Source of the DNA: Rahnella sikkimica | GTDB taxonomy: Bacteria; Pseudomonadota; Gammaproteobacteria; Enterobacterales; Enterobacteriaceae | Reading direction: 5' to 3' | NCBI RefSeq assembly: GCF_002951615.1 | Contig: NZ_CP019062.1 | Coordinates: forward strand, 1,984,001 to 2,048,000 | Length of the DNA: 64,000 bases | Part shown: in pieces, positions 1 to 50,585 of the stretch | Position numbering within the stretch: the first letter of the stretch is position 1 | How the letters are laid out: each line of letters begins with the position of its first letter | Notes under the pieces: generated by a model | Seen by the model: the letters and a program-made list of their open reading frames with translations, nothing else | What the model was told of the DNA's origin: nothing | Databases searched by the model: none | Translations under genes and position numbers: made by a program

Positions 1-1339
1 CGGTCAGCGCTGCGGCCAGGTCGTCTTCCGCCTTAGTCCACATTTCGTCAGTACCAATGCGCTTCTCCGGACGGGTGGACAGTTTCACCACAATCTTTTC
101 GAAACCAAAAGTGCTGTACATGTCATAGACCATGCGGATGCAGCTGTTCACTTCGTCACGCACCTGCTCTTCAGTACAGAAGATGTGGGCGTCGTCCTGA
201 GTGAAGCCACGAACACGCATCAGGCCGTGCAATGCACCTGAAGGCTCATTACGGTGGCAACTGCCGAACTCGGCCATACGCAATGGCAGATCACGGTAGG
301 ATTTCAGACCCTGGTTGAAGATTTGTACATGCCCAGGGCAGTTCATCGGTTTGATGCAATATTCACGGTTTTCAGAAGAAGTCGTGAACATCGCTTCTTT
401 GTAGTTTTCCCAGTGACCGGTTTTTTCCCACAGTACGCGGTCCATCATGAACGGGCCTTTGACTTCCTGATAGTCATAAGACTTCAGTTTCATACGTACA
501 AAGGCTTCCAGCTCACGGAAAATAGTCCAGCCGTCGTTGTGCCAGAACACCATACCTGGCGCTTCTTCCTGCATGTGATACAGGTCGAGTTGCTTACCGA
601 TTTTGCGGTGATCACGCTTGCCGGCTTCTTCCAGACGCTGAATGTAGGCATTCAGCTGTTTTTTATCTGCCCAGGCGGTGCCGTAGATACGTTGCAGCAT
701 TTTGTTATCGCTGTTGCCACGCCAGTAAGCACCGGAAGTTTTCTGCAGTTTGAAATGATGACAGAAACGCATATTCGGTACATGCGGACCCCGGCACATA
801 TCCACATATTCTTCGTGATGATACAGACCCGGACGATCATCATGACTGATGTTTTCATCCAGAATCGCCACTTTGTATTCTTCACCACGGCTTGCAAAGG
901 TATCACGCGCTTCCTGCCAGCTGACTTTCTTTTTAATAACGTCGTAATTCTTTTCAGCCAGTTCGTGCATGCGCTTTTCAAGCAGTTCGATGTCTTCCTG
1001 AGTGAGCGTGCGATCTAAATCGACGTCATAATAGAAGCCATTATCGATAACCGGGCCGATAGCCATTTTGGTGTCTGGCCACAATTGCTTGATGGCATGA
1101 CCCAAAAGGTGCGCACAGGAGTGGCGCAGGATTTCAAGACCGGCTTCGTCTTTAGCGGTGATGATCGCCAGTTGTGCATCCGTTTCAATCAGATCAGTCG
1201 CATCTACCAGTTCGCCGTTAACGCGACCCGCGATACAGGCTTTCGCCAGACCAGGACCGATATCGAGAGCAACATCAAGAGGTGAAACGGGGCGATCAAA
1301 AACGCGCTGGCTTCCATCAGGAAGAGTAATGACAGGCAT
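1..1339 (-). CDS. thrS: Threonyl-tRNA synthetase, 5' part (runs off the window)
   Basis: This cytoplasmic enzyme charges tRNA-Thr with threonine. About 446 N-terminal codons are visible of roughly 640 usual for the family; the rest lies left of the window. The protein starts [11 protein letters not shown], the TGS domain. It continues through the editing domain with the zinc-binding HxxxH (HSCAHLLGH) and the class II core with [10 protein letters not shown] and PMNCPGH. The start is the ATG at 1337-1339, preceded by AAGGAATTAAC on the minus strand. In E. coli, thrS is followed by infC-rpmI-rplT and is autoregulated by ThrRS binding its mRNA leader. The upstream 1340-1628 region could hold such a leader, but no operator stem-loop was confirmed. 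Identity is very secure. Confidence 0.97.
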
Positions 1340-37150: not shown

Positions 37151-37813
37151 TTATTTAAGAATAGCTATTATTCTACTCTCCATTTGATTGATTGTACATT
37201 TAACCATAGCTGAATACTCCGCAGATTGACTAGCTTCATTTGTTATTAAATCATCGTAGATAATTCTTCGAGTCGCTAGGGGGATAGTAGAATCGAGAAT
37301 ATTTTGGATTATTAGAAGTATCTTTTCAATTCTTTCCTTTCTTTGCTCGATTAACTCTGTCCTGTTTAATTTCAATATTTTCTCAGTTGACAAACCTTTG
37401 CTATCAAGTCCAAAAACAAGTGGGCCTGCAAACATCAATATGTTCTCTGGGTGTCCAACATACGGATCCTGAATGTCAAGCATGAGAGGATCTAAATTAG
37501 ATTTGTTCTGATTACAAACCTCACAAGCTAATGTTAGATTTACCCATTCAAATCTTTTTGACTCATCTAAAGACTTAGGATAAATATGTTCAATATCACC
37601 ATGATGTATATGCCGCAACTTACTCTCGCAATAAGCGCACTTCCCATATGTTTCTTTAACTATCTGTTCTTTAATTTCTTTATGATTGTACCTTGACTTT
37701 AAGTAAGTAGTTGATTCAATATTATTAGAAATGTTTGCCAAATGTATTTTGGTCCATTCAGCACCATTATCAGTAAGCACTTTAGGCTCAGTAAGCTTAG
37801 TTAACTTAATCAT
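37151..37813 (-). CDS. ptuB: Septu-type HNH endonuclease PtuB-like
   Basis: A 220-residue HNH nuclease. The zinc cysteines are Cys59 and Cys62 (GKCAYCE) and Cys97 and Cys100 (ACEVCNQNKSN). The catalytic segment is GDIEHIYPKS, with the general-base histidine at 76, then FEWVNLTLACEVC. This is the signature of PtuB and retron-associated HNH effectors (TIGR02646-like). The start overlaps the end of the ATPase gene by eight bases, so both are translated from one leftward mRNA. In Septu, PtuA and PtuB form a complex that degrades DNA on phage infection. No reverse transcriptase is present, so this is not a retron. Confidence 0.82.
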   Translation of the reverse strand: MIKLTKLTEPKVLTDNGAEWTKIHLANISNNIESTTYLKSRYNHKEIKEQIVKETYGKCAYCESKLRHIHHGDIEHIYPKSLDESKRFEWVNLTLACEVCNQNKSNLDPLMLDIQDPYVGHPENILMFAGPLVFGLDSKGLSTEKILKLNRTELIEQRKERIEKILLIIQNILDSTIPLATRRIIYDDLITNEASQSAEYSAMVKCTINQMESRIIAILK

Positions 37814-39062
37814 GATAATTATTACCCATGATATTACTCAAAGCCTCAGGGTAAAATTCACTTAAACCAACGACTTCTAATTCCTGACGTAATTCCTCTA
37901 ACCTATCAGCAGTTATTTTTTCTCCTGAAAATCCAGCACAAATACGTTGAAGTTCATCATCAGCCCACTGAGGTATCGTAACAGGAACACCTAGAACCTC
38001 CCTAAGAATTTTATTTGCTGTTGCGGCCTTTTGTCTTAAATCCAACTGAAAAGAATTAACTTTTTTCAGATCATTAACTGCATCATATTGCAACGCGTAT
38101 ACGTTCGATTCTTTTATTGAAGATATTATAAATGGGCTATGAGTAACAACTATAAACTGCACGTTTGGAAAGGCAGAGACCAAATTATTAAGTAAAGTTC
38201 TTTGCATAGCAGGATGAAGATGATTCTCAGGCTCATCAATAACAACGGTAAATAAATCAATATCTTGTGCGTATAAAAGTATTTGCCATGCAATATCAAT
38301 TAATGCCATTATCCCACCAGAAGTGGAGTCTAATATGAAATCCCCCGATTTAGTTTCAAGCACTACGTTGGGCATTTCAATTTTAATATTTTTGAAACCT
38401 ATTTCAGCAGGCAGTAATTTTTTCAATATATCAATGAATCCAAGGAATGTATTTTCTATCTTTTCGTTTTTCTTAACAAAACTATTTCCTATACCGAATG
38501 ATGCCATTGAAATTAAGGACTCTTTCATCATCGTAATTGGGCTACCATTGAAGGATTTATCTTCAAGATGCTGTTTGTAAGCACTAGTGTGTTTTTTATA
38601 AGAATCATAAGGATTGATAACCGTAGCAGGGATACTCGTCACTTCGGAGTAACTATTTGAAGCACGATGGGAATGTATGAACACCCCTTTTATTTGATTG
38701 TTTTTATTTTCAACATTTATCTCATATTCTATTTTATTAAGATTTTTATTAATAGAAAGAGTTGATTTCTCATCATCTGAATATGTTATGCATCCTATTT
38801 CATGTATACTACCCCCATGTGTTCCATCACTTTTACTAATTCCATCGTCATGGTTTTTAAATACATACTCATCAATTTTTTCATCATAAGTAGGAACAGC
38901 CAAGAATTTATGACTCCACTCCAAATGCTGTGCTAAAATTTTCAGTATTGTCGATTTCCCTGAACCGTTAGCCCCTGTAATGATTGTCACTCTCTCATGA
39001 AAATCAATATCAATTAAATTAAACTGACGCCAGTTAGATAAATAAATTTTTTTAAATTTCAT
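37806..39062 (-). CDS. ptuA: Septu-type ATPase PtuA-like
   Basis: A 418-residue SMC/ABC-like ATPase. The Walker A is GANGSGKST (residues 30-38) and the Walker B with D-loop is VVIDEPENHLHP near residue 275-285, followed by the switch histidine in FIVVTHSPFIISS. A C-terminal extension of about 90 residues (KILREVLGVPVTIPQW onward) is typical of PtuA. The start at 39062 follows AAAGAGGCTTAAA and gives the normal N-terminus MKFKKIYLSNWRQF; an upstream in-frame ATG at 39137 has no homology. A TATAAT at 39127-39132 (minus strand) could be its own promoter. It lies downstream of the repressor gene, where P2-type phages have int. Confidence 0.82.
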   Translation of the reverse strand: MKFKKIYLSNWRQFNLIDIDFHERVTIITGANGSGKSTILKILAQHLEWSHKFLAVPTYDEKIDEYVFKNHDDGISKSDGTHGGSIHEIGCITYSDDEKSTLSINKNLNKIEYEINVENKNNQIKGVFIHSHRASNSYSEVTSIPATVINPYDSYKKHTSAYKQHLEDKSFNGSPITMMKESLISMASFGIGNSFVKKNEKIENTFLGFIDILKKLLPAEIGFKNIKIEMPNVVLETKSGDFILDSTSGGIMALIDIAWQILLYAQDIDLFTVVIDEPENHLHPAMQRTLLNNLVSAFPNVQFIVVTHSPFIISSIKESNVYALQYDAVNDLKKVNSFQLDLRQKAATANKILREVLGVPVTIPQWADDELQRICAGFSGEKITADRLEELRQELEVVGLSEFYPEALSNIMGNNYHD

Positions 39063-39178
39063 TTTAAGCCTCTTTACTTTTAAATAAAAATAACACTTTA
39101 TCATTGTGCAATAGCCAATGTATAAAATTATATCCATCTATAGCGCTCATAGAAACTGATACGCTTTAACCACCACGG

Positions 39179-40045
39179 CTATATGTAATTTTTTAATAGG
39201 GCTACAACTAAACCTTTTGCTATAACTTCATTAGTTGAACACTCAAATTCGCCATCTTGACCGATAACGCGCAATTTACTCCCTGGACGCCTAGAAACCG
39301 CGTACACGTCTAAAATACCATCAATGTCTAACAGCCATGAGCCATTCGATATTTCGCTAATACCCATTTCAATCAACCACGCTGATTTACCACTTCGCAC
39401 AAAGTTCAAGTTATTAAGGTTGACACCATCTGGAACGAACGTCTCATCGATATAGCAAAAACCATCCTCATCAAGTTTCCCGGCCAGGAGTAATTTCTTG
39501 CTGATCATTGGTATTCCCGAGGCGGCAGTTTCCACTTGCGAGGCTATGCCCATTTCGCCCGTAGCTAACCATTCGAGGGAGGCACCGGTGTCCAATGCAC
39601 AGGTAATCACAACGTCGCCAGGAAAGTATTCTCTACGAACCCATGTACTAATCGTTCCTGTAGAAATCTCTAAATATTCACTTAATTCTTTTTGAGTCGT
39701 GAAACCGTAAGCGTCCAAAATTCGTTTAAGAACTGACTTCCCACCTGCAGATAACATTTTTTTTAACAATGTTTTACCGCTGTCTGTTCTCGCACTTTTT
39801 GAGATATTAGTATTTTTTAGATTTGCATTTGCAAATAAACCAGTTACTAGCCACTTTAGGTCTGCACCAGTGTCTAATGCGCATTTGATGATAGCGTTGC
39901 CGGGAACGCTTCCCCTCTGCACCCAGGCACTGACGTTGCCAGGAGAGATTTCCAGACACACAGCCAGCTCTTTCTGTGTTGAGACGCCATAAGAGGAAGA
40001 TAAACGATCAAGTACTTCCGACGCATTAGGTTTAGATTCAGACAT
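39179..40045 (-). CDS. P2/186-type CI repressor with duplicated HTH domain
   Basis: A 288-residue repressor. Residues 11-71 and 105-165 are two copies of the phage CI-type helix-turn-helix domain (TQKELAVCLEISPGNVSAWV and TQKELSEYLEISTGTISTWV), about 34 identities in 61 by my alignment, joined by a 33-residue basic linker. The C-terminal part (about 180-288) resembles the 186 CI oligomerisation domain, which is LexA-like but not self-cleaving. 186 CI has one HTH and about 190 residues, so this is a duplication. It faces the Cox-like gene across an operator region with three TACAAA half-sites. It probably keeps lysogeny by repressing the early promoter. Confidence 0.85.
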   Translation of the reverse strand: MSESKPNASEVLDRLSSSYGVSTQKELAVCLEISPGNVSAWVQRGSVPGNAIIKCALDTGADLKWLVTGLFANANLKNTNISKSARTDSGKTLLKKMLSAGGKSVLKRILDAYGFTTQKELSEYLEISTGTISTWVRREYFPGDVVITCALDTGASLEWLATGEMGIASQVETAASGIPMISKKLLLAGKLDEDGFCYIDETFVPDGVNLNNLNFVRSGKSAWLIEMGISEISNGSWLLDIDGILDVYAVSRRPGSKLRVIGQDGEFECSTNEVIAKGLVVALLKNYI

Positions 40046-40607: not shown

Positions 40608-41114
40608 ATGTTTGATTATCGCGTTTCCAAACACGCTCACTTTGACGATGCATGTAAGGCATTTGTGAATCGTCATAACCTTACCGAACTTGCCGCGCTG
40701 ATGGGAACTAAACCCCAAATCCTGCGCAATAAGTTTAATCCTGAGCAACCTCATAAACTTACCTGTGAGGAAGTTCTTTTAATCACTGATCTGACTGAGG
40801 ACGCAACTCTTCTCGATGGCATGCTTGCACAGATAAATTGCCTGCCGTCAGTACCGGTCAATGAAATTGCTACTTCTAATCTTTCAACCTACGCACTACA
40901 GGCAACTGCCGCCGTAGGTTCTATTGCAGCTGATGCAGTGAAAGGTGGTGCGGTCAGTTCTCAGCGTCGAATGTCCTTACTCGAAGGTGTAAATGCCGGT
41001 ATTCGCCATCTATCGCTGATCGGTTTAGTTGTTCAAGGCCGAGTACAGGCATCGCCTGCCCTGGCATCCGCAGTTGGTGCTATTGCAAGCGTCACGACAA
41101 ATGGGCTGATGTGA
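40608..41114 (+). CDS. Phage regulatory protein CII (186 family)
   Basis: A 168-residue protein of the 186 CII / Phage_CP76 family. The N-terminal HTH reads ELAALMGTKPQILRNKFNPEQPHKLT; the middle and C-terminal helices include GSIAADAVKGGAVSSQRRMSL. In 186, CII activates the promoter that first makes CI and so promotes lysogeny. It lies second in the early operon as in 186. It is followed after two bases by the small fil gene. Confidence 0.85.
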   Translation: MFDYRVSKHAHFDDACKAFVNRHNLTELAALMGTKPQILRNKFNPEQPHKLTCEEVLLITDLTEDATLLDGMLAQINCLPSVPVNEIATSNLSTYALQATAAVGSIAADAVKGGAVSSQRRMSLLEGVNAGIRHLSLIGLVVQGRVQASPALASAVGAIASVTTNGLM

Positions 41115-41116
41115 CT

Positions 41117-41287
41117 ATGGCTGTTTCTATCGCTCCATTTTTAAAACAGCAAAGTCCATCTCGCCATTTCGGCCATGGTTGCATTGAATTACCAGGCGGA
41201 AAGCGTTGGAACCCTTCAATGTCACAAGCCACTGCCCCGCAGGCCGTGAGAAATCCAAAACCGCTTTTAAAGCGTCTGTTTAGTTGA
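41117..41287 (+). CDS. fil: Fil family small phage protein
   Basis: A 56-residue basic protein directly after cII, in the same place as fil of phage 186. It begins MAVSIAPFLKQQSPSRHFGH and contains ELPGGKRWNP and a basic end KPLLKRLFS, typical of the phage filamentation (Fil) family. 186 Fil causes host cells to filament during early infection. The start ATG is two bases after the cII stop, implying coupled translation. Confidence 0.65.
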   Translation: MAVSIAPFLKQQSPSRHFGHGCIELPGGKRWNPSMSQATAPQAVRNPKPLLKRLFS

Positions 41288-41294
41288 GGTGATT

Positions 41295-41597
41295 ATGTCT
41301 TTAGTGAATGAAGAACATATTCAAATAGGCAAGAAGCATCTTTCCAGAATTAAAGAGATGTTTGATTTCAGAAAGAATGTAGCGCAGGAAACATTTGATA
41401 CTCAACCGCTGCACATGCGTAGAACAATCTGTTTTCATGCTGGCTTATCTCGCCGCCATCTTGAGATGAAGTTTGCTGAATTAACGCCGACGGAAAGGCA
41501 TCAAGTAGTTGCGGCGCTAAATTCTTTGCTTGGTTTAACTGAATCACTGCCCAAATTTATCAGTGATGATGATTGCAAGATAAATATTAAACACTAA
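41295..41597 (+). CDS. Small early phage protein, DUF5347-like
   Basis: A 100-residue helical protein whose second half (MRRTICFHAGLSRRHLEMKF then AELTPTERHQVVAALNSLL) resembles DUF5347 proteins found at this place in 186-like phages. The function is unknown. The ATG at 41295 follows TTGAGGTGATT; a GTG six bases earlier is an alternative. It is part of the early operon between fil and the replication gene. Confidence 0.6.
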   Translation: MSLVNEEHIQIGKKHLSRIKEMFDFRKNVAQETFDTQPLHMRRTICFHAGLSRRHLEMKFAELTPTERHQVVAALNSLLGLTESLPKFISDDDCKINIKH

Positions 41598-41661
41598 CCC
41601 GTATTCAAACTAATTGGCGTCAACTCGCCGGGCATTCGTTTGCCCAAAAAAGGAGTTCTGC

Positions 41662-41940
41662 ATGAAAAATATGATTGATAACACCCGTCAGAATATTGTT
41701 GGTTTTCCAGTTATGGGCATCGATTTAGCTTCACCAGAACGCGATTACACATCAGTTCTTGATTTGTCGTTGATGCTCGACACTGCTCGTAATGAAGAAC
41801 GCGCTAATAGAGCGGTGGTGTTTGCCGGTCGCCTTGAAGCGATTGCCAGTTTCATTCTCAAACGTGAAATGACAGGAATTGAAGCTGCTGAAGCACTCCG
41901 CATCGAAGCTAACCGAATTCAAAGTGAAGCGGAAGCGTAA
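41662..41940 (+). CDS. Small early phage protein, DUF2732-like
   Basis: A 92-residue protein with a helical core LDLSLMLDTARNEERANRAV and the end GIEAAEALRIEANRIQSEAEA, resembling DUF2732 proteins of P2-like phages. The function is unknown. The ATG at 41662 has the strong site AGGAGTTCTGC; the longer frame upstream is non-coding by appearance. Two bases separate its stop from the next start. Confidence 0.65.
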   Translation: MKNMIDNTRQNIVGFPVMGIDLASPERDYTSVLDLSLMLDTARNEERANRAVVFAGRLEAIASFILKREMTGIEAAEALRIEANRIQSEAEA

Positions 41941-41942
41941 CT

Positions 41943-42167
41943 ATGGCTGATGTACTTGACGCCGCCCAGGAGCGCGCTGATCTCGTCCTTTCCGCCCAAA
42001 TCCAAGCCGCCCGCGCAACTGTTGCAGGCGTTTCAGCAATGTTCTGCATCGCGTGTAATCGTCCGATACCAGAGGAACGCCGTGCAGCTCTGCCAGGTGT
42101 TGAGCTTTGTGTCTACTGCAAAGAACTCGCCGAGTTGAACGCCAGACATTACAGAGGAAACAAGTGA
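41943..42167 (+). CDS. TraR/DksA-type zinc finger protein
   Basis: A 74-residue protein of the short TraR/DksA C4 zinc-finger group, common in P2-like phages (P2 orf82). An N-terminal helix (ERADLVLSAQIQAARA) precedes the finger FCIACNRPIPEERRAALPG then LCVYCKELAE, with four cysteines as C-x2-C...C-x2-C. TraR-like proteins insert into the RNA polymerase secondary channel and mimic DksA/ppGpp. The stop TGA overlaps the next small frame. Confidence 0.85.
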   Translation: MADVLDAAQERADLVLSAQIQAARATVAGVSAMFCIACNRPIPEERRAALPGVELCVYCKELAELNARHYRGNK

Positions 42168-42247
42168 TCGTTTTCTCAGTGGCATTACTCATCCTGGCCT
42201 GTATTAACGCTGGCTATCTGGTCATTGATATCAAAGACGGTATGTAA
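42164..42247 (+). CDS. Tiny membrane peptide between the zinc-finger gene and A
   Basis: A 27-residue frame starting GTG (GTGA overlap with the previous stop) and ending TAATG, whose ATG is the start of gene A. The peptide MIVFSVALLILACINAGYLV is one hydrophobic helix followed by IDIKDGM. The tight overlaps on both sides suggest it is translated and couples A to the upstream genes. No function is known. Confidence 0.45.
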   Translation: MIVFSVALLILACINAGYLVIDIKDGM

Positions 42248-44496
42248 TGCAGACCAGCCGTTTTACCCCTCAGATTAAAACGCCCGAAGTCTGGGCGTTT
42301 CCCTGGAACAAACCACGCCAGGCCGTTTCTGGCCTGGAAAGACCGCTTACCCGTGATGAATACGATCAGGGGCAAGCTGTTTTAATCAGAGTAAAAAACC
42401 TCTCTACGGATCTGCGGGAAATTTTCACAGGCCGCCATGCGTATCTGCTGAAAACGCAGGGCATTCACGCCGCAAATAAATATCTGGTTTATACCCTTGG
42501 TCGCAGCATTCTTCCCCGCGTCGAAGCGGTTAATGCCGCTCATGCGATGAATGTTAAAGCCTCCATGAAATTCATGTCTGAGGCAGACACTTATCACAAC
42601 CTGCCGAGCATGAGCGATAAACCGCTGCGCCGGTTCGCCCAGGACATTGTCGGACAGCTGAAAGAAATCTATGAAGACCGTTGTGATCAGCTTCTTGCTC
42701 AATACAACGGGGATAATTCGATTCTTTTTGAGAGTGATACCCAGTGCGAGCTGTACTGCGAAATTGCCGGTATGGCACAGGCTTTCAATGTCACGCCGAT
42801 GTATTGGACAAGGTATTGCAAAGATAAACTGGATGCTGTTTCCGCTATCGCTGCCATGTCGCGCCTGGTCAATCCAGACTGGTGGTTACTCCAGTTGAAA
42901 GGTCAGCGCACCCGCTGGCGTGAATCTTTACTGATCGCCATCGGCAAAGTGAACCGTGACGCTTCCCCGTACGCCAGTAAGCAGGCTATTCGTGAAGTGC
43001 GCGCGCGCCGTCTTTCCAATCTCGACTATCTCAAAAGCTGCGACCTGGAAAACATCGAAACCGGCGAGCGTTTCAGTCTGATCGACAAAGTAATGGCGAG
43101 TATTTCTAACCCTGAAATCCGCCGTATGGAGCTAATGAGCACGATCGCCGGCACTGAAAAATATGCTGCTGCAAATGGCGACGTCGGGATGTTCCTGACC
43201 ATCACCACCCCTTCCAAATATCACCCGACCCGCATGGTTGGCAAGGGCGATAAAAAACGCGTTCAGCGAAATCACGCCTGGGACAAAGAAGCCTATACCC
43301 CGAAAGATGCGCAGCGTTATTTGTGCGGGATCTGGAGCAAGATGCGCACCGCGTTCAAGGATAGCGGCCTGTCAGTTTATGGTATGCGCGTTGTCGAACC
43401 CCACCACGACGCGACGCCGCACTGGCACATGATGTTATTCACCAAGCCAGCTATGCGTCAGCCGGTGATCGATATCATGCGTAAATACGCTATGAAAAAA
43501 GATGGTGACGAGCGCGGCGCTGCTAAAAATCGCTTTGACTGTAAGCACCTGAACCGTGGCGGCGCGGCGGGCTATATCGCCAAATACATCGCAAAGAACA
43601 TCGACGGCTACGCGCTGGAAGGCGAGCGCGACCACGAAACTGGCGAGCTGCTGACAGATTCTGCTGCTGCTGTCACCGCCTGGGCTGCTACCTGGCGGAT
43701 CCCCCAGTTTCATCCTATCGGCCTGCCTACAATGGGTTCATACCGTGAGTGCCGCCGCATCCGTTCCATCAATTTGACTGAAACCTTTGACGAAGAAGTG
43801 GAAGCCGTTCGCGCTGCTGCTGATGCCGGTGACTTTATGGCGTACATGTCAGCCCAGGGCGGCGCGAATGTGCCTCGCGACGATCAGACTGTGCGTGTAG
43901 CCCGCCGAGTTGCTGACGAACTGAACGCCTACGATGAAGAAGTGAAAAAGGTTGTGGGTATTTTTGCGCCTCACCTCGGCGATTCCCGCGTTTATGAAAC
44001 CCGTACAACACAATGGCGCATCGTTTCTTCTGCCGTTAACGTTGAGGTTTTGACCTCCAAAAGCGCCTCCGGCGCGCCTCGGAGTCCTGTCAATAACTGT
44101 GGGTTAGGTGGAAAGAAACAGGCTACAAATTGGCGTGATAGCCAGGCTGGGAGCGCGCCTACAGCGTCTAATTCTGACAACCTGCGAGTTATTGACTGGA
44201 CAGACACAGCCGCCGTGAGGGCGATTGTGGCGCGTATACGAGAGGAAACACCGAGAGTCAGCAAGGCGCAGCGAGGTTTTGACCCAACAAAGGGGCGCGA
44301 TGTTGCTCCATCTGCAAGATTGACGCCTGAAGAACGGGCGCGATTGCCTCAGATTGAACAGGAATTGCTTAAAAACGATATCAAAGCTCAAAGATGGGAG
44401 CTGGAAGCATTAACCCGGGGAGCCAAAATCAGTTTTGGTGATGTTGTGATCCATCATCCCCCTCTTATGGACTGGCAGGAATTTTATGACGACTAA
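42247..44496 (+). CDS. Replication initiation endonuclease GpA (P2 A family)
   Basis: A 749-residue rolling-circle replication initiator. The metal-binding HUH motif is His392-Trp-His394 (PHWHMMLF), and the two active tyrosines are Tyr443 and Tyr447 (AGYIAKYIAKNIDG), four apart as in P2 A (Tyr450/454). P2 A nicks the phage origin, which lies within its own gene, and stays bound to the 5' end. The origin is presumably inside this gene too but was not located. The C-terminal third (after about 600) is less conserved. The start overlaps the preceding stop. Confidence 0.93.
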   Translation: MQTSRFTPQIKTPEVWAFPWNKPRQAVSGLERPLTRDEYDQGQAVLIRVKNLSTDLREIFTGRHAYLLKTQGIHAANKYLVYTLGRSILPRVEAVNAAHAMNVKASMKFMSEADTYHNLPSMSDKPLRRFAQDIVGQLKEIYEDRCDQLLAQYNGDNSILFESDTQCELYCEIAGMAQAFNVTPMYWTRYCKDKLDAVSAIAAMSRLVNPDWWLLQLKGQRTRWRESLLIAIGKVNRDASPYASKQAIREVRARRLSNLDYLKSCDLENIETGERFSLIDKVMASISNPEIRRMELMSTIAGTEKYAAANGDVGMFLTITTPSKYHPTRMVGKGDKKRVQRNHAWDKEAYTPKDAQRYLCGIWSKMRTAFKDSGLSVYGMRVVEPHHDATPHWHMMLFTKPAMRQPVIDIMRKYAMKKDGDERGAAKNRFDCKHLNRGGAAGYIAKYIAKNIDGYALEGERDHETGELLTDSAAAVTAWAATWRIPQFHPIGLPTMGSYRECRRIRSINLTETFDEEVEAVRAAADAGDFMAYMSAQGGANVPRDDQTVRVARRVADELNAYDEEVKKVVGIFAPHLGDSRVYETRTTQWRIVSSAVNVEVLTSKSASGAPRSPVNNCGLGGKKQATNWRDSQAGSAPTASNSDNLRVIDWTDTAAVRAIVARIREETPRVSKAQRGFDPTKGRDVAPSARLTPEERARLPQIEQELLKNDIKAQRWELEALTRGAKISFGDVVIHHPPLMDWQEFYDD

Positions 44497-44579
44497 GATT
44501 GTTTAAACATTCATCTAAGCTATTGGTTAAAATTTAACATTCAGTTTTTATTGGAATTTGTTAAGAAATGGTAATATTA

Positions 44580-44599
44580 TACTGTATAAATAAACAGTG
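44580..44599 (+). promoter_or_regulatory. LexA (SOS) box in the prophage
   Basis: TACTGTATAAATAAACAGTG has CTG-N10-CAG and an AT-rich centre, close to the ideal SOS box. A promoter is plausible: TTGGAA at 44551-44556, 18 bases, then TATTAT at 44575-44580. The box would block that promoter and sits 15 bases before the small gene at 44614. Confidence 0.82.
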
Positions 44600-44613
44600 C
44601 ATTGGAGTGAGTA

Positions 44614-44805
44614 ATGGAATCCTCTCATGAGCTAAAGATGGCTTTGATAAAAATCCGGCTTATGGCTGACATCGCACAGTCAGGCCAGTGCAGAAATGAT
44701 GAGTACGCACTGGTGATGGAAATGATCTCTGATATGGCAGATAGCGTTCTGGATGAAGAAGACACGCCGTCAGTGCCATTCTCTGTTTACGACGATGAAG
44801 AATAG
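44614..44805 (+). CDS. SOS-controlled small acidic phage protein (position of 186 tum)
   Basis: A 63-residue protein with a helical N-terminus (SHELKMALIKIRLMADIA) and a very acidic tail (SVLDEEDTPSVPFSVYDDEE). It lies between A and cos, directly behind a LexA box. This is where phage 186 has the LexA-controlled antirepressor gene tum. There is no clear sequence likeness to Tum (about 146 residues) or DinI, so an antirepressor role is inferred only from position and control. The ATG follows TTGGAGTGAGTA. Confidence 0.7.
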   Translation: MESSHELKMALIKIRLMADIAQSGQCRNDEYALVMEMISDMADSVLDEEDTPSVPFSVYDDEE

Positions 44806-44815
44806 CCAGGAACGC

Positions 44816-44883
44816 GGGCGATCTCACTTTAATAGCTCTGCATGCAGTGAGTGCATGATTTTGCATTGTGATCGCCCTGCTCT
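44816..44883 (+). terminator. Long stem-loop after the SOS-controlled gene
   Basis: Outer stem GGGCGATC (44816-44823) / GATCGCCC (44870-44877) followed by TGCTCTTTT, with further self-complementary TGCATG inside. It could end the early/SOS transcript just before cos. Confidence 0.5.
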
Positions 44884-44962
44884 TTTCTCCCCGCGACACC
44901 AGTGCTGACGTGGATCACAGTGGATCACGCAACTGCATTAAAAGCGACCTATAAAGCGGGCA

Positions 44963-44981
44963 GGCGTGGCGGGGATAGCAT
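44963..44981. other. Phage cos site (cohesive end)
   Basis: GGCGTGGCGGGGATAGCAT matches the 19-base cohesive end of P2/186-type phages (from memory, P2 GGCGAGGCGGGGAAAGCAC and 186 GGCGTGGCGGGGAAAGCAT), one base from the 186 form. TGCGCGCTG follows as in P2. A tandem repeat of GTGGATCACA lies just upstream (44910-44929) and may be part of the terminase-binding region. Confidence 0.85.
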
Positions 44982-45104
44982 TGCGCGCTGTGCAATCAAC
45001 TTCCACAGGTTCCTCTGATTCAACAAAAAAACACAAGAAAATTTTCTATTTATTTGATGATTTTCTTTTAAAAAAAACTTAGCATGTGAAAAAGGAGAGA
45101 ATAT

Positions 45105-46676
45105 ATGCTTGAATCTATTGGAGTAAACAACTTTAGAAGTTTTAAAACTGAGACTACCATTGAGCTTAAACCAATTACGGTTTTTGTTGGTAAAAACAGC
45201 AGTGGAAAAAGTTCTGTATTACGTACATTCCCTTTATTTCGACAGTCTCTTGAGTCCAATACTACCGGCCCAATATTATGGTATGGACGTTACGTTGATT
45301 TTGGTGATTTTGAGGAAGTTATCTCTAATAATTCATTAAAAGATACAATTGAATTTAAATTTATCCTTTCCATAAGTGAGGATAGAAATAAAAAATTCAA
45401 TAGGTATTCTCATCGAATCGCAAATACTGAGGACACTAAGTTCGACGTAAGACTAAAACTCAAGGCTAAAGATAAAAAAACAAAAGCGAATGAAATAGAA
45501 ATAAAATTACATGACGTCACTATAAATATATATATTGGAGACAATGACAACGCAAGCTTTAAGATTACTTCCGGCAAAGTTGTAATCGAGAAAGATGGCC
45601 TTGTGGCTACAAATCTTGGGCAGTTTATTCCTCGAGTTTTATTGAAAAAAAAAGAGGAAGTAATAAGTACGACGACCGGAATTAAGAACCAATATTATTC
45701 TAATAGACCATATCAACCAAACGAATTAGAGTTAACGTTCCTCCAGTCAGGTTTAAAAATCCTAAGAGAATATTTCCATACAAACACTGACACAGACAAG
45801 ATATTAAATGGCCTTGATAGGCTTGGTTTTGTCAAAAAAGACGTGTACAGATACCTTCTTGAGGGAGTATTTAAAGAACAAAGATTCTTTGTTAACAATT
45901 TCAATAAAGATCCAAGCGCCATCGTAGATAAAATTTATCCATACACTATTGCTTGGAACCTGAATTCCATATTGAACATTATTAACTCAGAGTTGACTGA
46001 AATATTTTCTTCAATTAGATATATAGCACCACTCAGGGCAACCTCTGAACGATTTTATAGATTCCAAGATTTACAAGTGGATGAAATAGACCATACAGGT
46101 TCTAACCTTGCAATGCTGTTAAACTCACTGAAACCAACAGAAAAAAATCAATTTGAACAATGGACAAAAGTCAATTTTGGATTTTTTGTAAAGGTAAAGC
46201 AAGATGGCCCTCATTTCGCTGTCAGAATTGTAACTGATAGTGATGACACAGAATATAATATTAGCGATATGGGTTTTGGGTATTCTCAAGTCTTGCCTAT
46301 TTTGACTGCTATTTGGATGGAAACAGAAAGAAAGAAAGCCATTAAAGATAAAAAAATTATTTTCATAATAGAACAACCGGAACTTCACTTACATCCCGCC
46401 TATCAACATACCTTAGCTAAAATTTTTGCAAAAGTTATCGCAAAAGCTAAAGAAAACTCGATCAATATTCAAATAATATTCGAAACCCATAGTCAAAACA
46501 TGATCGAGTCTCTTGGCGAGTGCATAGAAGATAAATCTATCGATATAACACCAGATGACATTTCAATTATTATTTTTGATAAAGAGAATGGAAAGTCCAC
46601 TAATACTTCCATATCAACATTTGATGACGATGGCATGCTAAACAATTGGCCTATTGGTTTCTTTTCAGGAAGATGA
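45105..46676 (+). CDS. AAA/ABC-type ATPase, DUF3696 (COG4938)-like, putative defence ATPase
   Basis: A 523-residue ATPase of the OLD/RecF-like group. The N-terminus is LESIGVNNFRSFKTETTIE and the Walker A is GKNSSGKSS at residues 29-37. A long AT-rich middle part varies. The Walker B region is IIFIIEQPELHLHPAYQH (about 418-435), with EQPE in place of DEPE as usual in COG4938 proteins, followed by IIFETHSQNMIESL. The DUF3696-like end is DDDGMLNNWPIGFF. The start follows AAAGGAGAGAATAT. The stop overlaps an upstream ATG of the next gene (ATGA). It lies between cos and the portal gene, a cargo position. It probably senses infection and controls the partner nuclease-like protein. Confidence 0.8.
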   Translation: MLESIGVNNFRSFKTETTIELKPITVFVGKNSSGKSSVLRTFPLFRQSLESNTTGPILWYGRYVDFGDFEEVISNNSLKDTIEFKFILSISEDRNKKFNRYSHRIANTEDTKFDVRLKLKAKDKKTKANEIEIKLHDVTINIYIGDNDNASFKITSGKVVIEKDGLVATNLGQFIPRVLLKKKEEVISTTTGIKNQYYSNRPYQPNELELTFLQSGLKILREYFHTNTDTDKILNGLDRLGFVKKDVYRYLLEGVFKEQRFFVNNFNKDPSAIVDKIYPYTIAWNLNSILNIINSELTEIFSSIRYIAPLRATSERFYRFQDLQVDEIDHTGSNLAMLLNSLKPTEKNQFEQWTKVNFGFFVKVKQDGPHFAVRIVTDSDDTEYNISDMGFGYSQVLPILTAIWMETERKKAIKDKKIIFIIEQPELHLHPAYQHTLAKIFAKVIAKAKENSINIQIIFETHSQNMIESLGECIEDKSIDITPDDISIIIFDKENGKSTNTSISTFDDDGMLNNWPIGFFSGR

Positions 46677-46678
46677 TC

Positions 46679-47788
46679 ATGATAATTAAAATAATAAATA
46701 TAGAGAAAATCAACTTCTCAAACATCTCTCACGCACAAGCAATTGAGAATGTCATTCGTTCTTTTGGAGAAAAAAAACACATAATAATTGCCAATAAGGA
46801 TTTTTTCGAAAATGTAATTACTGAAAAAAACGGTGTCTTTAGCAGAATATTAAAACAATCTGCGGAAGAGGCTCGTCGGGCTCAGATGGAATACTCGTCA
46901 TTACTAAAATTCGTCAATTTCAATGTAGTGCTTGATTTCAATATTAAAGGTAAAGATTATCTATGGAATCAATTGCACGACTCAGAAACATTGACTGTGG
47001 GGCCAGATTTTTTTGTTGATTCCGCATCTGTTCAGGATGCCTTAATCGTTTGCGAAGATGTAAATGATTCGGATTTTTATAAAGTAATTGCAAGCTACTA
47101 TTCAAAAAAAATAAAAGCCAACCTTTTAAATATAAAATTTCAAGCAATTAATGGTGGCGGAGGAAGCACTAAAAGAATTTTCGATAGAAAGGTAAACAAC
47201 CTCGAAGTAACTCTTTGCATACTTGATAACGACAAGAAACACCCCAAATACCCTGAGGGAGGTACTTGCAAAAATTTTAATGGTGAAGCCCATCTGAAAA
47301 CAGGAAGGATAATAGTCATTAACGCCCACGAAATTGAATCATTGATACCATTCGATTTATTAGAAAATATTCTTATTGAGGATAAGGCATCCGTTGAAAA
47401 AATAGAGTCTCTTGATAGATTCCGGAGGATTTGTTCAGAAGATCAGACGGCCAAATTCTTCTTTGACCATAAAAAAGGGCTGGATATAAAGACAGCATTT
47501 GATTTAGATAAAAAATATGGGAGTTATTGGCTTCCATTAATCAATAAAGCAAATTCAGATAGTTTTAGTGAGTGCGTTAATAACAATGAATGTGACTGTG
47601 ATTCGCCTTGTTTTACAATTGCTGGATTCGGTGACAGTTTACTCACTAAATCAACAGCATATATTAACAATAACAATCCAAAAAACTTCTCGCCCTCTCT
47701 CACTGGACACTTAGAAGAACTATGGAATTATATTGGTAAGTCTTTTTTCAGCTGGAGTTGTGCCCCAGCAAAAAAAGTAAGATTGTAG
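46679..47788 (+). CDS. Toprim-like partner protein of the ATPase (unrecognised family)
   Basis: A 369-residue protein. Residues about 119-225 look like a Toprim fold: ALIVCEDVNDSDFY (Glu126), NGGGGSTKRIF after the second strand, CILDNDKKHP (Asp183, Asp185) and IIVINAHEIESLIPF (Glu218/Glu220). This order matches the DUF4435-type Toprim proteins in PARIS-like systems and the nuclease half of OLD proteins. A cysteine group (ECVNNNECDCDSPC, about 298-311) may bind zinc. The ATG at 46679 is preferred: AGGA lies eight bases upstream, and the ATG at 46673 overlaps the ATPase stop. The family is not recognised; nuclease activity is inference. Confidence 0.65.
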   Translation: MIIKIINIEKINFSNISHAQAIENVIRSFGEKKHIIIANKDFFENVITEKNGVFSRILKQSAEEARRAQMEYSSLLKFVNFNVVLDFNIKGKDYLWNQLHDSETLTVGPDFFVDSASVQDALIVCEDVNDSDFYKVIASYYSKKIKANLLNIKFQAINGGGGSTKRIFDRKVNNLEVTLCILDNDKKHPKYPEGGTCKNFNGEAHLKTGRIIVINAHEIESLIPFDLLENILIEDKASVEKIESLDRFRRICSEDQTAKFFFDHKKGLDIKTAFDLDKKYGSYWLPLINKANSDSFSECVNNNECDCDSPCFTIAGFGDSLLTKSTAYINNNNPKNFSPSLTGHLEELWNYIGKSFFSWSCAPAKKVRL

Positions 47789-47804
47789 ATTCCTTGCACT
47801 TAAA

Positions 47805-48821
47805 TTAGTTAAAAGCATAATTTTTGAAGTTAACAATACAGTTCTTAACTATAGTATTAACCTCCTTCATCCTCTCCTGCAGCGGCGTCAGTTCGTTCCT
47901 CACAAACACTTGCGCCGCCTTCTCCACATCCCCAAACCCGCCTGCATTATCAGGAATGATCCCCATCATCTGCGGCGGAACGCGGTGTGCGCTCAGCAGG
48001 TCATCCCGGCTGGATTTCTTGATGTTGAAGAAATCATCCTTAGTGGCGACCTCACTCAGCGGCAGAATCTGAATGCCGTCTTTCTTGCCGTTCGGGGCAT
48101 ACATGAACAGGTTGCGGAAGTTGCCCAGACCTTTGGTATCCCTCATTGCCTTACGCATTGAATCAATATCACTGCTGCTTTGCGCGGCGTCGGTCATATA
48201 CAGGATGTAACCTGCGTGCGCACCGTTCTGGTAATACTTACGGCGGAACAACGTCGCAGCTTCATTCAGCCAGGCAGAGTTAAGTGCACTCAAGTATTCC
48301 GGCAAGCCATATATCTCCTGGTTAATGTCCGGTTCGATCAGGTGAAAAATGCTGCCTGGTGCGAACTGATGCGGTTCTTTCCATCCCTGCACAAACCAGT
48401 AAGTCCCCTCTTCCACTCCACGTCGCACATATTTAGCCGGTACAGCTTCAAAGCGTAACGGTTCGCCGAGCTGGTTGCGGATCAGTTCCAGGTACGCATT
48501 CCCGAACACCAGATAGTCCAGCGCGAATTTGCTGAACTCCTGCTGGCTCAGCAATGGATGCGGGATAAATGTCGAGGCGAGGATATTACGCTTCACGTAA
48601 ATCGGCGAGCTGTGATGAACGGCGGCGCGCAGGCTGCGAGCCAGACCGTCGAAACTGACCGGTGGTTCATACCAGCGGCCGTTGCCGGTGCATTCGATGT
48701 AATCCAGAATCTCACGGCGGTCTAAAACCGGCGTCGGATCACCGAAGCTGAATACCTCCGCGCCCTGCTGGTTTTCAGTGGTCGTGGTCTGTGTGGTTTT
48801 ACGGTATTTGCGCTTGCTCAT
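47805..48821 (-). CDS. Q: Phage portal protein (P2 Q)
   Basis: A 338-residue portal vertex protein, nearly the length of P2 Q (344). It begins with a polar N-terminal tail (SKRKYRKTTQTTTTENQQG). Conserved portal blocks include EPPVSFDGLARSLRAAVHHS, RKYYQNGAHAGYILYMTDAA and SRDDLLSAHRVPPQMMGIIP. It is transcribed leftward with P, as in P2. Its start adjoins the P stop. The convergent Toprim-like gene ends 16 bases beyond its stop, so the cargo was inserted very close to the portal gene. Confidence 0.95.
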   Translation of the reverse strand: MSKRKYRKTTQTTTTENQQGAEVFSFGDPTPVLDRREILDYIECTGNGRWYEPPVSFDGLARSLRAAVHHSSPIYVKRNILASTFIPHPLLSQQEFSKFALDYLVFGNAYLELIRNQLGEPLRFEAVPAKYVRRGVEEGTYWFVQGWKEPHQFAPGSIFHLIEPDINQEIYGLPEYLSALNSAWLNEAATLFRRKYYQNGAHAGYILYMTDAAQSSSDIDSMRKAMRDTKGLGNFRNLFMYAPNGKKDGIQILPLSEVATKDDFFNIKKSSRDDLLSAHRVPPQMMGIIPDNAGGFGDVEKAAQVFVRNELTPLQERMKEVNTIVKNCIVNFKNYAFN

Positions 48822-50585
48822 TTAGTAGAACTCCAGAATGTTCGGGCTTTGTCCGCCATTGGCGGCGGTCAGTGGTTCGTTTAACAGGGCGTGCATGATT
48901 GCCCACGCGACGTCGGCGTGGCTGGCCTCTTCACTGCGGCTGGCTTCGTAGGTTGAACGGTTGCCGCTGGCGGTCATCGTTTTGCGTATCGCCATAAACG
49001 ACGCGGTGATGTCGGTATGGCCGGTGTCGTACTCCAGACGGCCGGAGCTGATAGTGTCTTTTGCTTTAAGTACCAGTGCGGTTTTCACCTCGGGGCTGTA
49101 ACGGATCTCACGCGCCGCCGGAAAGAACTGCTGAACAAGCTGGAAAACACCCTGCCCGATGCCAGTCGCATCAATGCCGATGTATTCAACCGCATAGCGA
49201 TTGGTCAGTTCTTCGATGCTTTTAGCCTGTGCGGCAAAGTCCATGCCCTTCCACTGGTGACGCTCGAGCACGCGGAACTTGCCACCAGCCACCACCGGCG
49301 GAGCGATCACCGCACAGCCTGCGCTGTCGCCGGTGTGCGACGGGTCGTAACCAATCCACACGGGACGATAGGCAAACGGTCGTTTCAGGTACGGGTCGAA
49401 GTCTTCCCACTCGTCCAGACTGTCCACCATGCAGCCCTGCAGCTCGGCGAACGGGAACACCGACGCCTGATCGTCCACAAACTCACACATCAGCAGGTTT
49501 TCATATTCTGCGGGACTGTATTCCAGTTGCAGCTGATCCAGGTCGAACAGGTTACAGCCACCAGACAGCGCATCCTCCACCGTTACAATCTGTCGCCACT
49601 GGCCGTCATCGCACAGCACGCCTTTTGACAGGTGCGCATGCGTCAGATCCAGGTCAATTCTGTCTGCTTTATTGCGACGACCTTTGTTGAACAGTTCACC
49701 CGACCAGAACGGATAGGCGCTGTGTGCCAGGCTCGACGGCGTAGAAAAGTAGGTGCTTCGCCATTTCTTATGCAGTGACATACCGGAGGCGACTTTGCGC
49801 AGCTCCTGAAACTTGGGGATCCAGAAGTATTCGTCCAGGTACAGATTGCCTGTATAGCTCTGCGCAGTGCGGACGTTGGTACCGAGAAAAATCAGCCGTG
49901 CGCCGTTAGGCAGCACAATCGGGTCGCCTTTTAAATCGACGTCCACCTGTCGGGCAAAGTCGATAATGTAGTTCTTGAAGACGTGCGCCTGCGCCTTACT
50001 GGCCGACAGGAAAATCTGATTGCGGCCGGTGGTCAGCGCATCAATCAACGCTTCCCGGGCAAAGTAGAAGGTTGCGCCAATCTGGCGGGACTTGAGGATG
50101 TTGCGAATACGGTGTTGAAGTCCGGCCTGATGCCATCCGCGCTGATACTCAAACGACGTTTCAATGAAGATGTCGCCGAGTTTCTCAATGGCCTCATCGC
50201 TGAAAACATTCTTCTCCGGCGCTTTGCGTTCGCCCTTATTACGGTTGGCAACGTTCGGATTTAAATCAGCCTCGCTGCCGGTATGGTTGTAACGTTTTAC
50301 CCGTGCCAGGCGTTCAATCTGTCGGCCTAACAGGTCGATCTCTTTGTAGTCCTTCCCCTCCTTCACATCTTTCATGACGAGCTGGATAAGCCGCGCTTCC
50401 ATGCTGGTTTCCACGCGAGAAATGGGCGCAATGGCCTCCCACTGATCGCGAGTTTTCCAGCTCTGCACGGTCGGCGTTTTTTGGCTCAGCATCTCCCCGA
50501 TTTGCCGCACAGAAAAACCCTGCCAGTAAAGCAGTGCCGCCTGTCGGCGCGGGTCGCTGATGATGGTGGAGTTTGAAATATTCAT
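48822..50585 (-). CDS. P: Large terminase subunit, ATPase (P2 P)
   Basis: A 587-residue terminase motor. An N-terminal HTH-like part covers about 1-60 (YWQGFSVRQIGEMLSQKTPT). The ATPase Walker A-like segment is KSRQIGATFYFAREAL, with the acidic Walker B in TGNLYLDEYFWIP. The nuclease domain acidic residues include WIGYDPSHTGDSAG and EYIGIDATGIGQG. With the small subunit M it cuts at cos and packages DNA into proheads. It is leftward, first gene of the P-Q unit, divergent from O. Confidence 0.96.
   Translation of the reverse strand: MNISNSTIISDPRRQAALLYWQGFSVRQIGEMLSQKTPTVQSWKTRDQWEAIAPISRVETSMEARLIQLVMKDVKEGKDYKEIDLLGRQIERLARVKRYNHTGSEADLNPNVANRNKGERKAPEKNVFSDEAIEKLGDIFIETSFEYQRGWHQAGLQHRIRNILKSRQIGATFYFAREALIDALTTGRNQIFLSASKAQAHVFKNYIIDFARQVDVDLKGDPIVLPNGARLIFLGTNVRTAQSYTGNLYLDEYFWIPKFQELRKVASGMSLHKKWRSTYFSTPSSLAHSAYPFWSGELFNKGRRNKADRIDLDLTHAHLSKGVLCDDGQWRQIVTVEDALSGGCNLFDLDQLQLEYSPAEYENLLMCEFVDDQASVFPFAELQGCMVDSLDEWEDFDPYLKRPFAYRPVWIGYDPSHTGDSAGCAVIAPPVVAGGKFRVLERHQWKGMDFAAQAKSIEELTNRYAVEYIGIDATGIGQGVFQLVQQFFPAAREIRYSPEVKTALVLKAKDTISSGRLEYDTGHTDITASFMAIRKTMTASGNRSTYEASRSEEASHADVAWAIMHALLNEPLTAANGGQSPNILEFY

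Follow-up and report, generated by a model that had tools for sequence, protein, structure and literature searches.

How should we understand two AT-rich genes that, in a P2-like prophage, fill the slot separating cos from the portal gene? The question is raised by a 64,000-nucleotide stretch of Rahnella sikkimica DNA (contig NZ_CP019062.1, positions 1,984,001 to 2,048,000; hereafter the window, in whose coordinates the features of this locus are given). Both genes lie on the + strand: gene A (45105..46676) is an open reading frame (ORF) of 523 residues and gene B (46679..47788) is an ORF of 369 residues counted from its ATG. They are closely coupled, with a gap of 2 nt between the stop of A and the start of B, and are therefore probably translated from a single shared message; promoter-like matches around the pair are at chance level (14, compared with 12.5 ± 3.9 in shuffled sequences). 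The original prediction, made from the sequence alone, held that the pair is an anti-phage system of the split ATPase/Toprim kind, that its ATPase belongs to a family other than AriA and that it may be undescribed. We consider it likely that the two genes make up an anti-phage cassette of the split ATP-binding cassette (ABC) ATPase/Toprim kind, carried as cargo by the prophage and acting by the mechanism proposed below. What could be observed or computed, namely the predicted folds, the motifs, the pairing, the co-inheritance and the hotspot location, gives good support to an anti-phage module of this split type, and it is from these that we infer the defence role.

Gene B encodes a predicted Toprim nuclease

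The AlphaFold model of B [predicted local distance difference test (pLDDT) 92.9, predicted template modelling score 0.90] shows an N-terminal α/β part (residues 1 to about 115) followed by a Toprim core (about 116–362). The best structural neighbours of B are chains of OLD, PARIS, retron Eco2 and GajA, and the Toprim-like fold proposed from the sequence is thus borne out by the model. The residues on which that proposal was based (E126, GGGG at 159–162, D183/D185 and E218/E220 in a protein of 369 residues) are all present. They belong to a Toprim motif region (residues 125–225; 47051..47353, + strand) comprising E126/D130, G159–G162, D183-x-D185 and H217-E218-x-E220, in which the Glu, Gly and DxD motifs stand, in order, at the ends of successive strands of the predicted structure, as in a Toprim domain. 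The acids are also in register with those of the Toprim of a single-chain OLD-like protein. In an alignment of this locus with 39 homologues, E126, D130, D183, D185, E218, E220, D263, H264, K265 and G267 are identical in all 40 sequences, and the six predicted active-site acids are thus invariant.

A cysteine cluster (C299, C305, C307 and C311; 47573..47611, + strand), which had also been pointed out, is indeed found in B and is a possible metal site, but it is not common to all homologues: C305 is missing in eight of the 40 sequences and the four-cysteine pattern as written in nine, one of which (P0025) is a fragment and two of which (L004 and L008) have cysteines with another spacing. The idea that the cluster is essential was dropped for this reason; judged from the alignment, it is lineage-specific.

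Profile searches detect B poorly. It has no Pfam family match, and the 37 other members of its family gave 16 scattered Pfam families, none of which recurred in more than two members or scored better than E 0.0032. Neither the B sequence nor a B profile matched a PDB chain at E ≤ 10, and Foldseek of B against viral models returned nothing at E ≤ 0.001. The B profile matched neither P2 Old nor four DUF4435 proteins or fusions, a weak test with single sequences on the other side. The sole PADLOC family matching B is PDC-M55B (21.1 bits, E 5.9e-5, the 149 residues 121–269). On the basis of the structural model, B is predicted to be a Toprim nuclease effector.

Gene A encodes a DUF3696-type ATPase

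A is an ABC-type ATPase, an AAA_15 protein with a DUF3696 tail (Pfam: AAA_15 114 bits, AAA_21 79.5 bits). The motifs reported earlier were located in the ORF translation, with the Walker A motif GKNSSGKSS from residue 29 (K35), EQPELHLHP from residue 423 and the tail NWPIGFF from residue 514; H462 completes the set. Its AlphaFold model (pLDDT 82.3) matches the heads of SMC, Rad50, retron Eco8 and GajA, SMC and Rad50 being the nearest in fold; AriA is absent from the 50 structural matches listed, which excludes nothing. Its best PADLOC profile is NsnB (176 bits), followed by PDC-M55A (163 bits, 2.2e-48) and HEC-03B (129 bits).

The Walker B of A carries E423-Q424, and a Gln replaces the catalytic Walker B Glu in 119 of the 120 A homologues among the matches listed. 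The DUF3696-type ATPases of several candidate systems (L028–L036) have EQ, or EN in two of the NsnB type, where a second acidic residue stands in the OLD- and AriA-type proteins used for comparison. This Gln at the catalytic position suggests that members of the A family may be slow-hydrolysing ATP clamps.

A and B are inherited together

Starting from B, an A-type gene is found directly upstream and on the same strand in all 32 loci surveyed (12 genome loci, 18 viral contigs and two annotated records). It should be noted that these loci are not independent. L048 is the prophage of this locus; L062 and L015 appear to be one and the same contig; L050 is identical to L051; and both L053 and L054 nearly duplicate L002. 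Furthermore, the contig of L007 ends within A, and L013, L014, L056 and L065 contain interrupted genes. Starting from A, a survey of 394 genomes of the same order (at most three candidates per genome scored, E ≤ 1e-20 for full-length A) gave B in seven genomes and a full-length A in six, and in those six the two genes coincide and are adjacent. The possibility raised with the original prediction, that homologues of the two genes occur mostly apart, is thus not borne out from either side. The seventh B match is the Toprim half of a single-chain OLD-like protein of 588 residues (L021, 136–1902), possibly a link between the split and fused forms.

In these 394 genomes, nine A-type ATPases with weaker matches have other partners according to a PADLOC scan: PDC-M55B-type in L028 and L033 (the former also matching the B profile at 8.8e-13), HEC-03A in L030 (clear) and L032 (weak, 3.5e-6), NsnC in L034 and L035, and no PADLOC family in L029 and L036, the partner in L031 lying outside the scan. 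Full-length relatives of A are found at E 1e-118 or better, compared with 1e-28 or weaker for the PDC-M55A-type ATPases. From the six adjacent pairs set against these nine ATPases, we conclude that partners are exchanged across the wider DUF3696 ATPase group, whereas the A type of this locus keeps to one in this sample. In addition, pairwise distances in A are correlated with those in B: r is 0.967 over the 30 pairs in which A has 480 or more residues and B 330 or more, and 0.934 over the 25 pairs left after dropping those below 20 % A distance, values to which species relatedness and linkage also contribute. Permutation reached neither correlation (0/10000 each; best permutation 0.40). A and B form a unit that is inherited together.

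The pair is cargo of the gpA–gpQ hotspot

The best match to the 19-nt P2 cosL within 41001–48918 is at 44963..44981 (+ strand, 16 of 19 positions identical) and was assigned as cos, which places the pair between cos and the portal stop (47805). On the left, the interval is anchored by a P2-type gpA replication protein (42247..44496, + strand), named from a relative in L002 that carries the E. coli annotation ‘replication endonuclease’; on the right, by the P2-type portal gene Q (47805..48821, − strand), convergent with the pair, whose relative in L002 is annotated as a portal protein. Besides A and B, this interval contains no ORF above 87 residues. With G+C contents of 0.331 (A) and 0.341 (B), the two genes lie far below the phage backbone, in which gpA has 0.529 and portal plus terminase 0.544. 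Coordinates, composition and cosL match therefore agree with the AT-rich gene pair described in this slot. The accompanying remark that there is little or no coding DNA at this place also holds for P2, the one phage compared, in which the stretch from cosL to the end of Q (19..187, under 200 bp) contains a terminator only. That description omitted the fact that P2 old and tin are located just across cos, on the side opposite to the slot of the pair, and that the gpA–gpQ interval of P2 is a described defence hotspot, with 18,150 occurrences and 1,650 gene arrangements (Rousset et al., PMC9122126). Several systems cloned from it gave anti-phage activity according to the same authors. Lying between gpA and gpQ and beside cos, the pair is cargo of this hotspot.

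Relation to known systems

PARIS (AriA and AriB, a proposed class 4 OLD) resembles the pair in having an adjacent ABC ATPase and separate Toprim protein and in occurring in P2/P4-type elements, and the predicted structure of B has an AriB-like Toprim fold. The rule of Rousset et al. (PMC9122126) for PARIS is an AAA_15 match of at least 32 bits or an AAA_21 match of at least 27 bits, with an adjacent DUF4435 (PF14491) match of at least 27 bits. A lies well above both ATPase thresholds, and the claim of an ATPase family other than AriA is weakened to this extent; what remains of it is the DUF3696 tail, the Walker B motif with Gln for its catalytic Glu and, above all, the difference in the B protein. 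DUF4435 has no match at E ≤ 1 in B and none in 37 of 37 B members, whereas the same profile detects four other loci at 70–97 bits. The pair is thus not a standard PARIS, as had been anticipated. In B, moreover, some 115 residues precede the Toprim core as an additional N-terminal part, whereas the PARIS chain aligns from its residue 13; most members also have the cysteine cluster.

OLD class 1 (P2 Old) and class 2 (GajA of Gabija) likewise combine an ABC ATPase with Toprim chemistry, and old belongs to the same hotspot. However, OLD proteins of classes 1–3 are single chains, whereas here there are two ORFs with a stop between them, and P2 Old has no direct profile match to B. The neighbours of the pair are gpA and the portal gene, and since no other ORF above 87 residues lies between these, the pair has neither the adjacent UvrD-like helicase GajB of Gabija nor the adjacent reverse transcriptase of type I-B retrons (OLD class 3), whose noncoding RNA was not sought. 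Two retrons appear in the structural comparisons: Eco2, whose effector contains a Toprim, is among the structural matches of B, and the OLD ATPase head of Eco8 is among those of A. As for COG4938, to which A had been likened, PMC7251935 names it only among the COGs of the GajA ATPase.

Among the PADLOC systems, HEC-03 (named in a rumen survey; PMC13356809) and Nsn have a DUF3696-type ATPase in common with the pair, but their partners match HEC-03A or NsnC and include no B-type Toprim protein. Indeed, A matches HEC-03B and NsnB, whereas B has no match to the HEC-03A or NsnC models at E ≤ 1. The candidate system PDC-M55 comes closer, as both genes match its models in the gene order of L028 and L033, and no other family of the library detects B. 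The B match is weak compared with the 100 and 78 bits of the L028 and L033 partners, and pairs of the type found here form a close group of their own. Judged by these scores, PDC-M55 appears to be the nearest catalogued relative, with B far diverged from PDC-M55B. Two papers (PMC12988326 and PMC11514479) present the PDC families in general as putative candidates obtained by guilt-by-embedding, most of which still await validation. In the open-licence PMC literature we found no paper on PDC-M55 or on this pair, nor any joining DUF3696, defense and phage.

By profile and gene content, the pair is thus neither PARIS by the published rule nor OLD class 1–3, Gabija, Nsn or HEC-03. ABC-ATPase plus Toprim defence is already known as a kind (PMC10568477 and PMC9122126), and ATPase–Toprim operons are in print (PMC12839542, crediting earlier work of Aravind and colleagues). 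With these precedents and a distant relative in PADLOC, ‘may be undescribed’ was too strong. Because the pair fails the PARIS rule on DUF4435, has PDC-M55 as its only catalogued relative and is the subject of no paper that we found, it is a divergent lineage within the known ABC-ATPase/Toprim defence kind. The group, in which we found work on OLD, Gabija, retrons and PARIS, gains with it a lineage that is carried by phages, tightly paired and barely detected by current profiles.

Proposed mechanism and alternative explanations

In PARIS, sensing is the task of AriA, and AriB is a Toprim nuclease that cuts tRNA and for which two metal ions are proposed (PMC12409363). By analogy, A would keep hold of B until it meets a phage signal, after which B would cut and abort the infection. 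A would serve as an ATP-binding sensor and scaffold, and B would be a two-metal Toprim nuclease, inactive until A meets the infection signal and then cutting either host tRNA, in the manner of AriB, or DNA, like OLD and GajA. Since Gln occupies the catalytic position of Walker B in A, the likeliest variant is one in which A would stay an ATP-loaded clamp, switched by ligand binding and not by fast ATP turnover. We may wonder whether tRNA or DNA is cut by a Toprim lineage with other active-site surroundings (the invariant DHKxG, the Cys cluster of most members and the extra N-terminal part), and whether the Gln-type Walker B makes DUF3696 ATPases ATP-locked sensors. A bolder extension, which we regard as rather unlikely, is that of a separate split ATPase–Toprim immunity class, in which a natural ‘EQ’ ATPase, unable to hydrolyse ATP at the normal rate, would be an ATP-locked clamp caging the Toprim effector and releasing it on a phage signal, and not an ATP-driven motor; the DUF3696-type group (this type, PDC-M55, HEC-03 and, with Asn, Nsn) would share this switch and swap effectors.

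It is possible, though doubtful, that the pair is merely a member of PDC-M55, which would be compatible with the anti-phage cassette that we favour. The matches of both genes argue for it, as do the 19 of 37 B members that match PDC-M55B and the clear PDC-M55B partners of the weaker A relatives in L028 and L033, one of which matches the B profile. However, B reaches just 21 bits over 149 residues, NsnB outscores PDC-M55A for A, and the full-length relatives of A stand far above the PDC-M55A-type ATPases. A divergent PARIS, in which A would be an AriA and B an AriB too diverged for DUF4435, sensing Ocr-type anti-restriction proteins and cutting tRNA, has the shared fold in its favour but seems improbable, given the consistent lack of DUF4435 under a profile that works elsewhere, the DUF3696 tail and EQ Walker B that set A apart from two DUF4435-adjacent ATPases and two fusions examined, and the additional N-terminal part of B.

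Explanations other than defence fare worse. A prophage maintenance or toxin–antitoxin module, with B as toxin, A as antitoxin and no anti-phage role, would suit a coupled two-gene operon with a predicted nuclease, yet a large ATPase is presumably unlike common antitoxins, and two other loci adjoin defence genes. The P2 hotspot also houses partition systems, but toxin–antitoxin behaviour was excluded for the analogous ariAB by Rousset et al. (PMC9122126), and we give this explanation little chance. It is very improbable that the pair is a phage DNA repair or replication helper, that is, an SMC/Rad50-like ATPase with a nuclease. The head of A is indeed nearest in fold to SMC and Rad50, and one annotated record names an A relative a Rad50 repair ATPase; however, the pair looks like dispensable cargo, being absent from the cosL–Q stretch of P2, present in just six of the 394 genomes of the order, inverted in two phages and known from a filamentous phage and from places next to integrases as well.

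Distribution and genomic neighbourhoods

P2-type gpA and portal genes flank 11 of the 32 loci, the prophage of this locus and three near-duplicates among them. The slot is used in both orientations, L058 and L065 having the cassette turned round with respect to the gpA and portal genes. In E. coli, 38 of 5,426 genomes have a distant DNA match covering 31 % of the query, essentially gene A, and the one E. coli locus examined has A and B genes between gpA and portal, adjoining a cos match. About 2.6 kb of a 12.6 kb filamentous Pseudomonas aeruginosa phage (OR621022.1) is a relative of the pair, and in L009 and L010 the pair adjoins integrases. The pair is rare: across 369 genomes of the class it was found in its own genome alone, and 50,697 phage records gave one relative of each gene, both in the same record. 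Plasmids gave two weak partial B matches, in Planococcus.

Two neighbourhoods contain defence genes. In the viral contig L060, a complete Kiwa system (1260–2896; KwaA 2.8e-100, KwaB 5.6e-155) lies directly upstream of the relative of the pair, and in Psychrobacter luti (L006) a gene with a match to Mad3 and a weaker one to Mad8 of MADS (289–1377) lies about 3 kb upstream. Six of the ten flanking proteins scanned with PADLOC had no match, and housekeeping neighbours (a transketolase and a transporter) also occur. Finally, the same prophage in the window carries a second AT-rich ATPase–nuclease pair on the − strand (37151–39137), which is Septu by PADLOC profiles (PtuA 3.2e-168, PtuB 5.1e-76) and adjoins a putative repressor gene (39179–40045), so named from its look alone.
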